Below are positions 1,306-6,327 of a stretch of 64,000 nt of DNA, piece by piece. Both the position numbers and the translations under genes were made by a program. The stretch is from the NCBI GenBank assembly GCA_003130815.1, contig QFDA01000001.1:980631-1044630 (forward strand), written 5' to 3'. The first letter of the stretch is position 1, and each line of letters opens with the position of its first letter. Under the pieces are notes generated by a model. It was not told where the DNA came from. It worked only from the letters and a program-made list of their open reading frames with translations, and did no database searches. Source of the stretch: Bacteroidetes bacterium SCGC AAA795-G10. Its GTDB lineage: Bacteria; Bacteroidota; Bacteroidia; Flavobacteriales; Flavobacteriaceae.

Positions 1306-2178
1306 TTAGGATTTTTTTTCTTTTGATTTTATGCTTTCAATTACTACTGTGCTGAGAATTATAATTCCACCTACAACATTTTTAAAATTTGGAATTTCAT
1401 TTAACAAAATTACACTCATAATGATACCAAAAAGTGGTTGGATACTACTTATAATACTTGCAGTACTGATACTAAAATGTGAGAAACTTGAAAGAAAAAG
1501 CGTGTGGCCTAATGCTGTTGTAATAAATCCTAACATAAGTAGATAAGGTAAATCAGGTTGAATTTGATAGTCAGAATAAATAAAAAATACAGGTAATAAA
1601 ATTATTATAACGACAAAGAGTTGATAAATCATTTGTATTGATCCATCTGCCATAGAGTTGTGTTTCTTTAAAATTAAGTTTCTTAAAGAGTACGCGAGAG
1701 CAGAAAATAGTCCCATTAATAAACCTTGAGTAGCTTTATTATTAAAATCAAAATTGGGTACCAAAAAGAATACACCAATTAAAATTAAAATTCCAAAAAT
1801 AATATGTCTTGCTTTTAATTTTATAGATATAAATAATGGTTCTAGTAAAACTGTAATAATAGGGTAAGTAAAAAGAGATAACATACCTACAGTGACATTG
1901 CTCCATTGCAAAGCAAAAAAATAAGTAATCCAGTGAATACTCATAAATAGTCCGCTAAGTAATAAAGCTAAGCCATGATTAGTTAAGTTTATTTTAAATG
2001 AAGTTTTTTTTAATAAGGCATAAATAATTAAACATAAAATAGCAATCAATGAACGAAACCATATTGTGATTGGAGGCGGGAGAGAAATATATCTTCCCAA
2101 TGGGCCTGAGGTACTTATAAACAACATAGCCAGATTTAAAATTATGATATAATAAAGATTATTATTTTTTATGTTCAA
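1306..2178 (-). CDS. EamA/DMT family transporter
   Basis: About 10 TM segments, EamA-like repeats (LLSGLFMSIHWITYFFALQWSNVTVGML...). Confidence 0.85.
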   Translation of the reverse strand: MNIKNNNLYYIIILNLAMLFISTSGPLGRYISLPPPITIWFRSLIAILCLIIYALLKKTSFKINLTNHGLALLLSGLFMSIHWITYFFALQWSNVTVGMLSLFTYPIITVLLEPLFISIKLKARHIIFGILILIGVFFLVPNFDFNNKATQGLLMGLFSALAYSLRNLILKKHNSMADGSIQMIYQLFVVIIILLPVFFIYSDYQIQPDLPYLLMLGFITTALGHTLFLSSFSHFSISTASIISSIQPLFGIIMSVILLNEIPNFKNVVGGIIILSTVVIESIKSKEKKS

Positions 2179-2223: not shown

Positions 2224-2254
2224 TTTGTTTTTGAAAAAAGCAATAGTAATTTTG
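2224..2254 (+). promoter_or_regulatory. Putative Bacteroidetes-type promoter of the aromatic operon (TTTG 2224-2227, N19, TAATTTTG 2247-2254)
   Basis: Matches the TTTG/TAnnTTTG consensus of Bacteroidetes primary sigma promoters, about 19 bp upstream of the leader ORF. Confidence 0.6.
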
Positions 2255-2272
2255 TCGATAAATTATTAATTA

Positions 2273-2338
2273 ATGAAATTATATTCATACTACAATAACT
2301 ACTATTACTTCTGCGTTGAAGAGACCAGGTCTGTTTAG
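2273..2338 (+). CDS. Leader peptide MKLYSYYNNYYYFCVEETRSV* (attenuator leader, Tyr-rich)
   Basis: ATG AAA TTA TAT TCA TAC TAC AAT AAC TAC TAT TAC TTC TGC GTT GAA GAG ACC AGG TCT GTT TAG read directly; six Tyr codons and one Phe codon in 21, followed by a terminator and pheA. Confidence 0.8.
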   Translation: MKLYSYYNNYYYFCVEETRSV

Positions 2339-2372
2339 TATTATGAAAACATTTTATATAAAGTCCTGATCT
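2322..2372 (+). promoter_or_regulatory. Candidate antiterminator: AGACCAGGTCT (2322-2332) pairing with AGTCCTGATCT (2362-2372)
   Basis: 9 of 11 positions can pair (mismatches at 2325/2369 and 2330/2364); mutually exclusive with the terminator 5' arm; 5' segment lies in the last codons of the leader ORF. Confidence 0.6.
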
Positions 2373-2390
2373 GTTCAGGACTTTTTTTTT
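2361..2390 (+). terminator. Rho-independent terminator/attenuator upstream of pheA
   Basis: AAGTCCTGA-TCTGT-TCAGGACTT perfect 9-bp stem followed by TTTTTTT; pheA ATG is at 2394. Confidence 0.85.
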
Positions 2391-2393
2391 ATA

Positions 2394-3227
2394 ATGAAAA
2401 CTAAGAAAAACATAGCAATACAAGGTAAGAGGGGATCCTTTCATCATATTGTTGCTGAAAGATATTTTGGGGAAAACCTTTCTTTAATATTATGTGACAC
2501 TTTTGATAAAACTGTAACTAAACTCATCAAAGGAGAGGCTGATTATGTTGTAATGGCGATTGAAAATTCAATAGCAGGTTCCATAATACCAAATTATGCA
2601 CTAATTGATCAGAATAATGTAAAAATTATTGGAGAATACGGATTAAGTATAAGCCATAATTTTATGGGGTTAAAGGGACAGCAAATTAATGACATTAAAG
2701 AAGTTTACTCTCACCCTATGGCATTATTGCAGTGCAAAAGTTTTTTTAATAATTATCCTCATATACGTCTTGTTGAATCAGAAGACACCGCCGAAGAAGC
2801 ACAAAGAATATTTAAAAATAACATGAAAGGTATTGGCGCTATAGCTAGCAAGGAAGCTGCTGAAATGTATAATTTGTCAATTTTCGCTTCCTCAATACAG
2901 ACAATTAAAAATAATGTCACTCGATTTGTCATTCTTAACAATGATGGTAATTTAATTTCAAAAGAAAATATCAATAAAGCTGCCCTTAAATTTATTTTAG
3001 ATCATCAAAGGGGTAGTTTAGCAGCAATATTGAATGTTATGAGTGATTGTCAGCTCAACTTAACAAAAATTCAATCCTTACCTGTAATTGAGACTCCTGG
3101 CAAATATGCTTTTTTTGTAGATGTTACCTTTGACGAGCTTGTACATTATTTAAAAGCAAAAAAATTAATTTCAATAATGGCATCAGAGTTTAAAATTCTT
3201 GGGGAATTTACCCAGCATCAAAAATGA
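2394..3227 (+). CDS. pheA: Prephenate dehydratase with C-terminal ACT domain
   Basis: IAIQGKRGSFHHIVAERYF, AIENSIAGSI, SHPMALLQC, NNVTRFVIL; ACT region GSLAAILNVMSDCQLNLTKIQSLP. Confidence 0.92.
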   Translation: MKTKKNIAIQGKRGSFHHIVAERYFGENLSLILCDTFDKTVTKLIKGEADYVVMAIENSIAGSIIPNYALIDQNNVKIIGEYGLSISHNFMGLKGQQINDIKEVYSHPMALLQCKSFFNNYPHIRLVESEDTAEEAQRIFKNNMKGIGAIASKEAAEMYNLSIFASSIQTIKNNVTRFVILNNDGNLISKENINKAALKFILDHQRGSLAAILNVMSDCQLNLTKIQSLPVIETPGKYAFFVDVTFDELVHYLKAKKLISIMASEFKILGEFTQHQK

Positions 3228-4372
3228 AAACGGCTAAAAGATTAAATAATATAAAAGAATACTATTTCTCAAGAAAACTGAGAGAGGTAGGAGAAATGAT
3301 AAAGGTCGGAAAACCAATAATTAATATGGGAATCGGCAGTCCAGATTTGGATCCTCACCCTGATATAGTAAAAGCTCTTGAAAAATCAATATTTGAGCCT
3401 AAGGCCCACATGTACCAAAATTATAAGGGAATACCAGAACTTAGAAAATCTGTAAGAGAATTTTACAAGACCCATTATGATGTAGATTTGGATCCAGATT
3501 CGCAAGTTCTACCGCTTATGGGTTCTAAGGAAGGAATAATGCATATATCTATGGCTTATCTTAATCCTGGAGATGAAGTTTTGATTCCTAATCCTGGTTA
3601 TCCAACCTATGCCTCTGTAACAAGATTAATGCAAGCTAAAGCAATTACATATGACTTAAAACTTTCTAATGATTGGCAACCTGATTTTAAGGAATTAGAA
3701 AATTTAGATACTACAAAAGTAAAAATCATGTGGCTAAACTACCCTCATATGCCAACAGGAGCTGAATTTTTAGAATCTACTTTTAGTTTTTTGGTTAAAT
3801 GGGCTTATGAACGTAATATTCTTTTAGTAAATGATAATCCATATAGTTTTATTTTAACTAAAAAACCAAAAAGTATATTATCCATACCTGGTGCTGAGTC
3901 AGTTGCAGTTGAATTAAATTCTTTAAGTAAGTCTTTTAATATGGCTGGTTGGAGAATAGGAATGTTATCTGGAAAAAAATCAGTTATAAGTGAAGTCCTC
4001 AAAGTTAAAAGCAATATGGATTCAGGAATGTTTTTTGGTATTCAAAAAGGTGCTATAGCTGCATTAAAAATGAAACCTGAATGGTTTGAAAAATTAAATG
4101 AAGTCTATAATAAAAGAAAGGAGCTTATTTTAATACTAATTAATAAAATTGGGGCTAAAATCGAGTCAAAAAGTGTTGGTTTATTTTTGTGGGCTAAAAT
4201 TCCCGAAGGTAATATTAGTTCGGAAGAATTCGTAGATAAAATACTTTATGAAAAAAATATATTTATAACACCAGGAACTGTATTTGGTATGCAAGGTGAG
4301 GGCTATATTCGTTTTTCACTTTGTGTTTCAGAAGAAATTATAATTGAAGCTATAAATCGTTTTAAATCATGA
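3224..4372 (+). CDS. Class I/II PLP-dependent aminotransferase (probable aromatic aminotransferase)
   Basis: LMGSKEGIMHISMAYLNPGDEVLIPNPGYPTY, VELNSLSKSFNMAGWRIGM (PLP Lys); ATGA overlap with pheA. Confidence 0.88.
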   Translation: MKTAKRLNNIKEYYFSRKLREVGEMIKVGKPIINMGIGSPDLDPHPDIVKALEKSIFEPKAHMYQNYKGIPELRKSVREFYKTHYDVDLDPDSQVLPLMGSKEGIMHISMAYLNPGDEVLIPNPGYPTYASVTRLMQAKAITYDLKLSNDWQPDFKELENLDTTKVKIMWLNYPHMPTGAEFLESTFSFLVKWAYERNILLVNDNPYSFILTKKPKSILSIPGAESVAVELNSLSKSFNMAGWRIGMLSGKKSVISEVLKVKSNMDSGMFFGIQKGAIAALKMKPEWFEKLNEVYNKRKELILILINKIGAKIESKSVGLFLWAKIPEGNISSEEFVDKILYEKNIFITPGTVFGMQGEGYIRFSLCVSEEIIIEAINRFKS

Positions 4373-5217
4373 AAATAGGTGTAATTGGTCTTGGATTAAT
4401 TGGAGGCTCATTTGCTTTATCAGCAAAAAAAAGTATAAGAGATTGTAGTTTATTTGGGATGGATAATAATCCTGAACACTTAAGTCAAGCATTTGAATTA
4501 GGAATTATAAATCAATCCTTGACACCTTTAAATTACTCTCGTATGGATGTAATTATTTTAGCGATACCTGTTAATGCAGTTTTAGAAATAATTTTGACAC
4601 TTTTAGACCAAATAAATGATAACGCCCTTTTAATTGATGTTGGATCAACTAAGGAAATGATATGTGAAAAAGTAAAACTGCATTCTAAGCGTAGTCAATT
4701 TTTAGCAACTCACCCAATTGCAGGAACAGAGTTTTCTGGACCTTCAGCTGCAAACAAAAATCTATTCAAAGGGAAAGCTCAAATTTTGTGTGAAGTAAAT
4801 AAAACAAGACCTGATCTATTGGAATGGGCAGTCCAATGGTTTAAAAATATGGAAATGAAACTTCAAGAGATGGATCCTATTGAACACGATCAACACATAG
4901 CATATGTCTCACATATTTCTCATATTTCTTCATTTATGCTTGGTAAAACTGTAATGGAGAAAGAAAAAGATGAGAAAGCAATTTTTGATATGGCTGGAAG
5001 TGGTTTCGCCTCTACTGTGAGATTAGCAAAAAGCTCTCCCTCTATGTGGGCACCAATTTTTATTCAGAATAAAAAAAATATTTTAGACGTATTGACAGAA
5101 TATATTTCAAATTTGGAAGAATTTAAAAAATTAATACAGGCAAATGATTACAAGTCAATATATGAGAAAATTGAGCAGACGAATGCCATCAAAGGAATTT
5201 TAGAGGGAATAAAATAA
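4369..5217 (+). CDS. tyrA: Prephenate dehydrogenase
   Basis: GVIGLGLIGGSFALSAK NAD motif, THPIAGTEFSG, HDQHIAYVSHISH. Confidence 0.9.
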   Translation: MKIGVIGLGLIGGSFALSAKKSIRDCSLFGMDNNPEHLSQAFELGIINQSLTPLNYSRMDVIILAIPVNAVLEIILTLLDQINDNALLIDVGSTKEMICEKVKLHSKRSQFLATHPIAGTEFSGPSAANKNLFKGKAQILCEVNKTRPDLLEWAVQWFKNMEMKLQEMDPIEHDQHIAYVSHISHISSFMLGKTVMEKEKDEKAIFDMAGSGFASTVRLAKSSPSMWAPIFIQNKKNILDVLTEYISNLEEFKKLIQANDYKSIYEKIEQTNAIKGILEGIK

Positions 5218-5241: not shown

Positions 5242-6327
5242 ATGGAAAATAAAAAGAACATGCGCAATTGGTTAAATGATTTTGAACTTAGTCATCCCCT
5301 GGTTATAGGTGGTCCATGTAGCGCTGAAACAGAAGAGCAAGTGCTAAAGATCGCAAATCAGTTGAAAGATAGTGATGTTAGCGTATACAGAGCGGGAATT
5401 TGGAAACCAAGAACACGCCCTGGTATGTTTGAGGGCGTAGGAGCAATAGGGTTGAACTGGCTAAAAAAAGTAAAAGAGCAAACAGGTTTATTAACTGCTA
5501 CAGAGGTAGCAAATAAAGATCATGTTAAATTAGCTATTGAAAATGACATTGATATTTTATGGATTGGAGCCCGGTCTACAGTTAGTCCTTTCATTATGCA
5601 AGAATTAGCTGACGCTTTGGAAGGAACTGAGAAAATTATTTTGGTAAAAAACCCAGTTAATCCAGACTTAGCGCTATGGTTAGGAGGCGTTGAACGTCTT
5701 TATAGCGCAAAGATTAGAAAGTTAGGTCTAATTCACCGCGGATTCTCAACTTATGAGAAAACTAAATACCGAAATAATCCTGAATGGCAAATAGCAATTG
5801 AGGTAAAAAATCGTTTTCCAGACCTTCCAATGATATGCGACCCTTCACATATTTCAGGACGCAGAGATTTGATTTTTGATATTTCACAAACAGCTTTAGA
5901 TCTCAACTTTGATGGATTGATGATAGAATCTCATTGGGATCCAGATAATGCTTGGAGCGATGCTAAACAGCAGGTTACCCCTTCGCGTTTAATTGAGATT
6001 ATGCGAGATTTAAAAGTGAGAAATAAAACAACTGAAGAAGAGGCATACAAAAATAAGCTAGGTTCTCTAAGAGCTCAAATTGATGTTGCTGATCAAACAC
6101 TTCTTAATGCATTAGGAAAGCGAATGAAAATTGCAAAGGAAATAGGATTATTGAAAAAAGATAATAACGTTGCTGTTCTCCAAAATAAGAGGTGGAATGA
6201 AATATTAGGTAAAATGATTTTAGATGGACAAGAGCGTGAATTGTCTGAAGAATTTATATTGAGAGTTTTTAAAGCAATTCATCAGGAATCAATTAATAAA
6301 CAGGATAAAATTTTAAATAAAAATTAA
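5242..6327 (+). CDS. Bifunctional DAHP synthase (type I beta) / chorismate mutase (AroQ)
   Basis: GGPCSAETEEQ, RAGIWKPRTRPGMFEG, WIGARSTVSPF, CDPSHISGRRD; C-terminal LRAQIDVADQTLLNALGKRMKIAKEIGLLKK chorismate mutase. Confidence 0.9.
   Translation: MENKKNMRNWLNDFELSHPLVIGGPCSAETEEQVLKIANQLKDSDVSVYRAGIWKPRTRPGMFEGVGAIGLNWLKKVKEQTGLLTATEVANKDHVKLAIENDIDILWIGARSTVSPFIMQELADALEGTEKIILVKNPVNPDLALWLGGVERLYSAKIRKLGLIHRGFSTYEKTKYRNNPEWQIAIEVKNRFPDLPMICDPSHISGRRDLIFDISQTALDLNFDGLMIESHWDPDNAWSDAKQQVTPSRLIEIMRDLKVRNKTTEEEAYKNKLGSLRAQIDVADQTLLNALGKRMKIAKEIGLLKKDNNVAVLQNKRWNEILGKMILDGQERELSEEFILRVFKAIHQESINKQDKILNKN

Follow-up and report, generated by a model that had tools for sequence, protein, structure and literature searches.

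The pheA-AT-tyrA-aroG/CM operon of this flavobacterium is in all probability controlled by a classical ribosome-mediated attenuator of the trp/his/phe type, which would sense mainly the charging of tRNA-Tyr and secondarily that of tRNA-Phe. The attenuator lies at the head of the operon, within the 64-kb stretch of DNA that was analysed (the window; Table 1), and is itself very likely real, its type of switch being the classical one. Ribosome-mediated transcription attenuation is strongly supported by the conservation of the elements, by the co-variation of two mutually exclusive pairings, by a constant spacing between the control codons and the antiterminator, and by modelling of the ribosome states. 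The switch would probably keep the operon off unless tyrosine (or phenylalanine) is scarce.

Table 1. Positions in the window of the leader elements and of the genes that follow them, with the evidence for each.
Feature	Position	Strand	Evidence
Putative promoter TTTG (2224-2227)-N19-TAATTTTG (2247-2254), Bacteroidota-type -33/-7 element	2224-2254	+	Same element in same-genus leaders
Predicted leader peptide ORF, MKLYSYYNNYYYFCVEETRSV	2273-2338	+	Sequence; aromatic-rich leader at homologous place in 33 same-genus loci and 56+ others
Control codons: Tyr 2282, 2288, 2291, 2300, 2303, 2306; Phe 2309	2282-2311	+	Sequence; stall modelling
Region 1, protector helix 5′ strand TTCATACTAC, over Tyr codons; partner 2337-2347	2284-2293	+	MFE fold; 1:2 swap test
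Protector inner hairpin, CTTC (2308-2311) with GAAG (2318-2321)	2308-2321	+	97.6% of cells paired in 31 same-genus sequences
Region 2, antiterminator 5′ strand AGACCAGGTCT, mimic of terminator 3′ arm	2322-2332	+	2:3 duplex in 89/89 loci; swap tests
Stop codon and protector 3′ strand TAGTATTATGAA	2336-2347	+	MFE fold; swap test; same-genus pairing
Region 3, terminator 5′ arm (2360-2369) and loop bases; alternative partner region 2	2360-2372	+	Pairing analyses
Region 4, terminator 3′ arm (2375-2384) and T run (2382-2390)	2375-2390	+	10-bp helix 99.7% paired in 31 same-genus sequences
pheA, prephenate dehydratase (PDT + ACT)	2394-3227	+	Pfam PF00800, 193.6 bits
Class I/II aminotransferase	3224-4372	+	PF00155
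tyrA, prephenate dehydrogenase	4369-5217	+	PF02153, PF20463
DAHP synthase fused to chorismate mutase	5242-6327	+	PF00793 + PF01817

The leader ORF runs over 21 codons from the ATG at 2273 to the TAG at 2336-2338, a length below the reach of usual ORF calls. It contains a run of codons for end products of the operon, and its translation is predicted from the sequence: six of its 21 residues are Tyr and one is Phe, Trp codons are absent, and Phe 2309 is the final codon of the control run. The start codon, the six Tyr codons and the Phe codon given in an earlier, sequence-only reading of this DNA were all borne out. The promoter-like TTTG-N19 element of that reading is also present, and is conserved in the genus, since TTTG-N19-TANNTTTG takes up the corresponding position in 30 of the 31 leaders from the genus, which is every one whose sequence extends that far. 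Transcription would then start at about 2260.

Between the leader and the first gene sits a predicted intrinsic terminator, with a loop at 2370-2374 and a run of nine T. The hairpin and T run had been described as a perfect 9-bp terminator; both are there, but the helix has 10 pairs when the basal A-U pairs are counted. The proposed pairing of region 2 with 2362-2372 holds at 9 of 11 positions, as described, and 10 nt separate the Phe codon that closes the control run from the start of region 2. The sequence-only reading had overlooked the protector (1:2) helix, which is the third element of a classical attenuator. This helix joins the Tyr codons to the segment around the stop codon; its pairing is borne out by swap tests and is weak in the subclade of the window (-9.8 kcal/mol, compared to a genus median of -14.3 kcal/mol).

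We then examined whether this arrangement could be due to chance. No second Tyr/Phe-rich mini-ORF followed by a terminator occurs anywhere in the window on either strand (128 kb of strand sequence), dinucleotide shuffles of 2179-2393 gave a leader with a terminator in 0 of 5000 cases (a leader alone in 11 of 5000), and a slightly looser detector found no match when run on 400 segments of 500 nt drawn at random from the window. By these controls, the arrangement is not a chance occurrence. The leader transcript is also more stably folded than its shuffles (z = -2.73). A phage origin of the leader DNA was considered as well, and gave no match. The antiterminator of the window is the weakest of its subclade (-9.9 kcal/mol, with 122 of 2000 shuffles equally good), whereas those of its three closest relatives range from -11.7 to -15.1 kcal/mol, with only 4 to 21 of 2000 shuffles equally good. 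This is because the window has a C at 2325 where the three relatives have a T, at a cost of 2 to 5 kcal/mol to the duplex. Hence, the 2:3 pairing is unconvincing from the window sequence alone, and it is the relatives that supply the conviction. C2325 may mark an attenuator that is slightly impaired, be a natural variant or stem from an error of assembly, and leaves the conclusion at the level of the family unaffected.

Within the genus (31 sequences), no covariation was obtained for the terminator and 2:3 helices, both of which are nearly invariant, while the protector showed modest compensatory change. As the terminator and antiterminator vary too little inside the genus, the analysis turned to comparisons between genera: 89 leaders were analysed in detail and their segments exchanged between 34 genera or families. 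In all 89, a sequence that imitates the terminator 3′ arm, and could capture the 5′ arm, lies between the last aromatic codons and the terminator. True 2:3 partners paired at a mean of -14.4 kcal/mol, compared to -9.6 kcal/mol for the swaps, and none of 20000 swaps was as good; the same result (0/20000) was obtained within the Flavobacteriaceae only and after stratification by GC content, which rules out GC content as the cause. For the protector, the own 1:2 pairs reached -19.3 and the swaps -13.1 kcal/mol, with 0 of 5000 swaps as good across groups and 0 of 20000 within the Flavobacteriaceae only. Hence, an antiterminator that excludes the terminator is supported, and the covariation suggested as a check on the helices is found between genera for both the 2:3 and the 1:2 pairings, but not within the genus for the terminator or the 2:3 helix.

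The distance from the last aromatic codon to region 2 is nearly constant (median 10 nt, interquartile range 8-11; 10 nt in the window). This spacing fits the leading half of a ribosome footprint, whose dimension is general knowledge, as the classical trp/phe model requires. To model the ribosome states, a 28-nt footprint was masked at each codon of the window leader. The modelled probability of the 2:3 pairing, P(2:3), was 0.65 with the ribosome stalled at the last Tyr/Phe codon, compared to 0.10 at the stop codon. By stall codon, it was about 0.65 for codons 2-13, 0.54 at Cys14, 0.27 at Val15 and, for Glu16 through the stop codon, 0.01-0.11, so that the drop falls between codons 14 and 16, directly past the Tyr/Phe run, and stalls beyond 2315 fail to free region 2. 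The model thus predicts that a ribosome at the control codons frees region 2 and that one at the stop codon masks it, in agreement with the stall geometry that the sequence-only reading had proposed. At equilibrium, the modelled terminator was favoured in every ribosome state of the window leader (P about 0.96), which implies that the switch must be kinetic, like classical attenuators.

Transcription would begin near 2260, with a ribosome trailing the RNA polymerase along the leader ORF. When Tyr-tRNA and Phe-tRNA are ample, the ribosome would reach the stop codon and cover region 2, leaving region 3 to pair with region 4, and the RNA polymerase would stop in the T run. When Tyr-tRNA (or Phe-tRNA) is scarce, the ribosome would wait at the control codons with its leading edge just short of 2322, and region 2 could capture region 3 before region 4 is made, allowing the operon to be transcribed. 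Without translation, the protector would be expected to favour termination in most relatives, and less so here, where the helix is weak.

As the operon encodes PheA, TyrA and a DAHP synthase/chorismate mutase, it serves the synthesis of Phe as well as Tyr and also supplies the common aromatic pathway. The order pheA, aminotransferase, tyrA, DAHP synthase/chorismate mutase is common to 12 named loci (L002-L013). Divergent from the operon lies an EamA (DMT) transporter gene (1306-2178, minus strand), which could encode an amino-acid exporter; an ABC ATPase gene stands behind it, and the arrangement is syntenic across the genus. The source genome is a 1.9-Mb draft, and the named relatives in the public collection are assemblies from uncultured Flavobacteriaceae/Bacteroidetes, of which several are marine to judge by their names.

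We next looked at which amino acid is sensed, the physiological specificity being predicted here from the codon make-up. Among the 89 leaders, the share of Tyr in the aromatic codons peaks at 0.86-0.88, in the window and the three relatives closest to it. Other leaders of the genus mostly have about 0.5-0.6, those of genus g22 have 0.25-0.44 and the remaining ones 0.17-0.67. In codon numbers, this four-species subclade has 6-7 Tyr to 1 Phe and the genus about 5 Tyr to 4 Phe, while leaders of g22 lean to Phe (2 Tyr to 6 Phe in the short type). We infer that g22, the largest genus sampled, is Flavobacterium, from its size and its number of species. The description of the leader as tyrosine-sensing thus captures the Tyr-rich extreme that this subclade represents, but the system at its root is a mixed one, reading Phe and Tyr and sometimes Trp, and one Phe codon is kept even here. 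Many Flavobacteriaceae leaders carry one Trp codon beside Phe and Tyr (g28, g33, g35, g37, g38, g44, g47 and others, for example MNTRYFWNGFYFYFFKRG in L076), as if they read all three aromatic amino acids, which would fit the presence of DAHP synthase in the operon. We think it rather more likely than not that a dual Phe/Tyr attenuator of pheA is ancestral to much of the class Bacteroidia and was retuned by codon swaps, leaning towards Phe in the Flavobacterium type and becoming Tyr-dominated, and hence tyrosine-sensing, in one marine subclade of the Flavobacteriaceae. The leaders from Phe-rich to Tyr-rich on one scaffold form a natural series on which to test how a cell picks the end product, of two, that an operon senses.

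Somewhat short of an even chance, in our estimate, is the alternative that the leader is a true dual sensor of Phe or Tyr, in which the Tyr dominance of the subclade has no regulatory meaning and a shortage of Phe acts equally well, through the conserved Phe 2309 that directly precedes region 2 among the control codons. All 89 leaders contain both Tyr and Phe, the F of the YYF position is retained in nearly all same-genus leaders, including that of the window, the modelled P(2:3) does not differ between a stall at F13 and one at Tyr, and the operon makes both amino acids. However, with six or seven Tyr codons against one for Phe, a delay would be likelier under a mild shortage of Tyr, and the summed stall index is 4.14 for Tyr and 0.64 for Phe here, compared to 3.03 and 2.33 in the rest of the genus.

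Two further explanations would take the sensing away from the leader codons. It is very improbable that the leader is a decoy, in which a fixed partial terminator accompanies a short translated ORF and the aromatic residues either result from the demands of RNA pairing or belong to a functional micropeptide. The RNA helices do overlap the ORF, so pairing also constrains the codons, but the aromatic runs persist across families whose RNA sequences differ in regions 1-4, the C-terminal residues of the leader are not conserved between families, and region 2 tracks the terminator and not the peptide. That a riboswitch, a T-box or an RNA-binding protein operates the terminator seems to us scarcely credible, even though the position of the terminator directly before the first gene is as in such systems: an Rfam scan found no family at the gathering score in the window, at the site or in 16 related loci, the distance of about 12 nt from the putative start site to the leader leaves no room for an aptamer or a T-box, and the sensing part is already filled by the leader ORF. 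The ribosome-mediated attenuator thus remains the preferred reading.

Conservation of the Tyr/Phe run and the terminator, on which the sequence-only reading had staked its proposal, extends well beyond the closest relatives. The leader and terminator occur at the same place upstream of pheA in 33/33 readable same-genus loci, with the promoter wherever the contig reaches. Outside the genus, 76 pheA loci of Flavobacteriaceae, Flavobacteriales and Bacteroidia were sampled: a leader rich in aromatic codons and followed by a terminator is present in 58, one is marginal and 17 are without. Eight of these 17 belong to one Flavobacteriales family, f7 (L110-L112, L144-L148), in which neither an aromatic leader nor a terminator was found before pheA. 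The start sequence of PheA also differs at several f7 loci (e.g., MKIAFLGP). The sequences suggest that pheA of f7 represents a different lineage without the attenuator.

Much of Bacteroidia thus has a complete four-part attenuator before its Phe/Tyr operon. In this group, promoters are unusual, initiation proceeds without a Shine-Dalgarno sequence, and leader-peptide control has, to our knowledge, been little described. In our search for earlier work on such leaders in Bacteroidetes, which covered freely readable papers, only one report was directly relevant. This study of F. psychrophilum (ISME Commun. 2021, PMC9723704) lists in its main text a structured 5′ element before pheA that has no Rfam match and is shared by further genera of the Flavobacteriaceae. 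It also reports that operons for amino acids show strong clues for upstream leader-peptide attenuation. The gene, position and taxonomic range agree with those of the window, the element itself being compared by its main-text description, which does not specify the leader, codons or helices; in our data, the attenuator is present in 12/12 loci of g22, the genus taken as Flavobacterium. Hence, the pheA 5′ element is already in print at the level of a list and is not first noticed here. Its four-part anatomy, class-wide range and retuning to Tyr were not found in the papers searched (freely readable ones and the main text of PMC9723704), and the conservation across the class Bacteroidia and the drift towards tyrosine appear to be undescribed.

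The enterobacterial pheA leader (Rfam Phe_leader, RF01859) is alike in having an aromatic-codon leader peptide, a protector, an antiterminator and a terminator before pheA, and it works in the same way. It is rich in Phe and is not known to contain Tyr, Tyr control in E. coli being through TyrR, and its operon differs in content from that of the window. The comparison with this family, suggested by the sequence-only reading, gave no membership: the window leader scored 21.0 bits (E = 0.31) against a cut-off of 55. Thr_leader (RF00506) gave 28.7 bits (E = 0.0015), also against a cut-off of 55, a likeness of layout only. Bacteroid-trp (RF01692), likewise a peptide leader RNA of Bacteroidetes, differs in its Trp codons and trp genes and did not match the pheA leader up to E = 10. 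Since Rfam lacks the element and standard ORF calling passes over so short a leader, both a new family in Rfam and an annotation rule would follow.

Finally, we looked for such leaders elsewhere in the same genome. No attenuators were found before thrA and ilvD. Upstream of trpE (L158, G000:C56:23200-24100, minus strand), a leader MENFIYNINWWYAKQQNLV (WW) is followed by a strong terminator, and scores 35.6 bits against Bacteroid-trp, below the cut-off of 49. Upstream of hisG (L157, G000:C69:70700-71500, minus strand), a leader MKILLHHAHQFKNYSNEM (HHAH) is followed by a terminator, with a possible mimic of its 3′ arm, TCAAACGAG. With leaders before pheA, trpE and hisG, leader-peptide attenuation appears to be a general device in the source genome.
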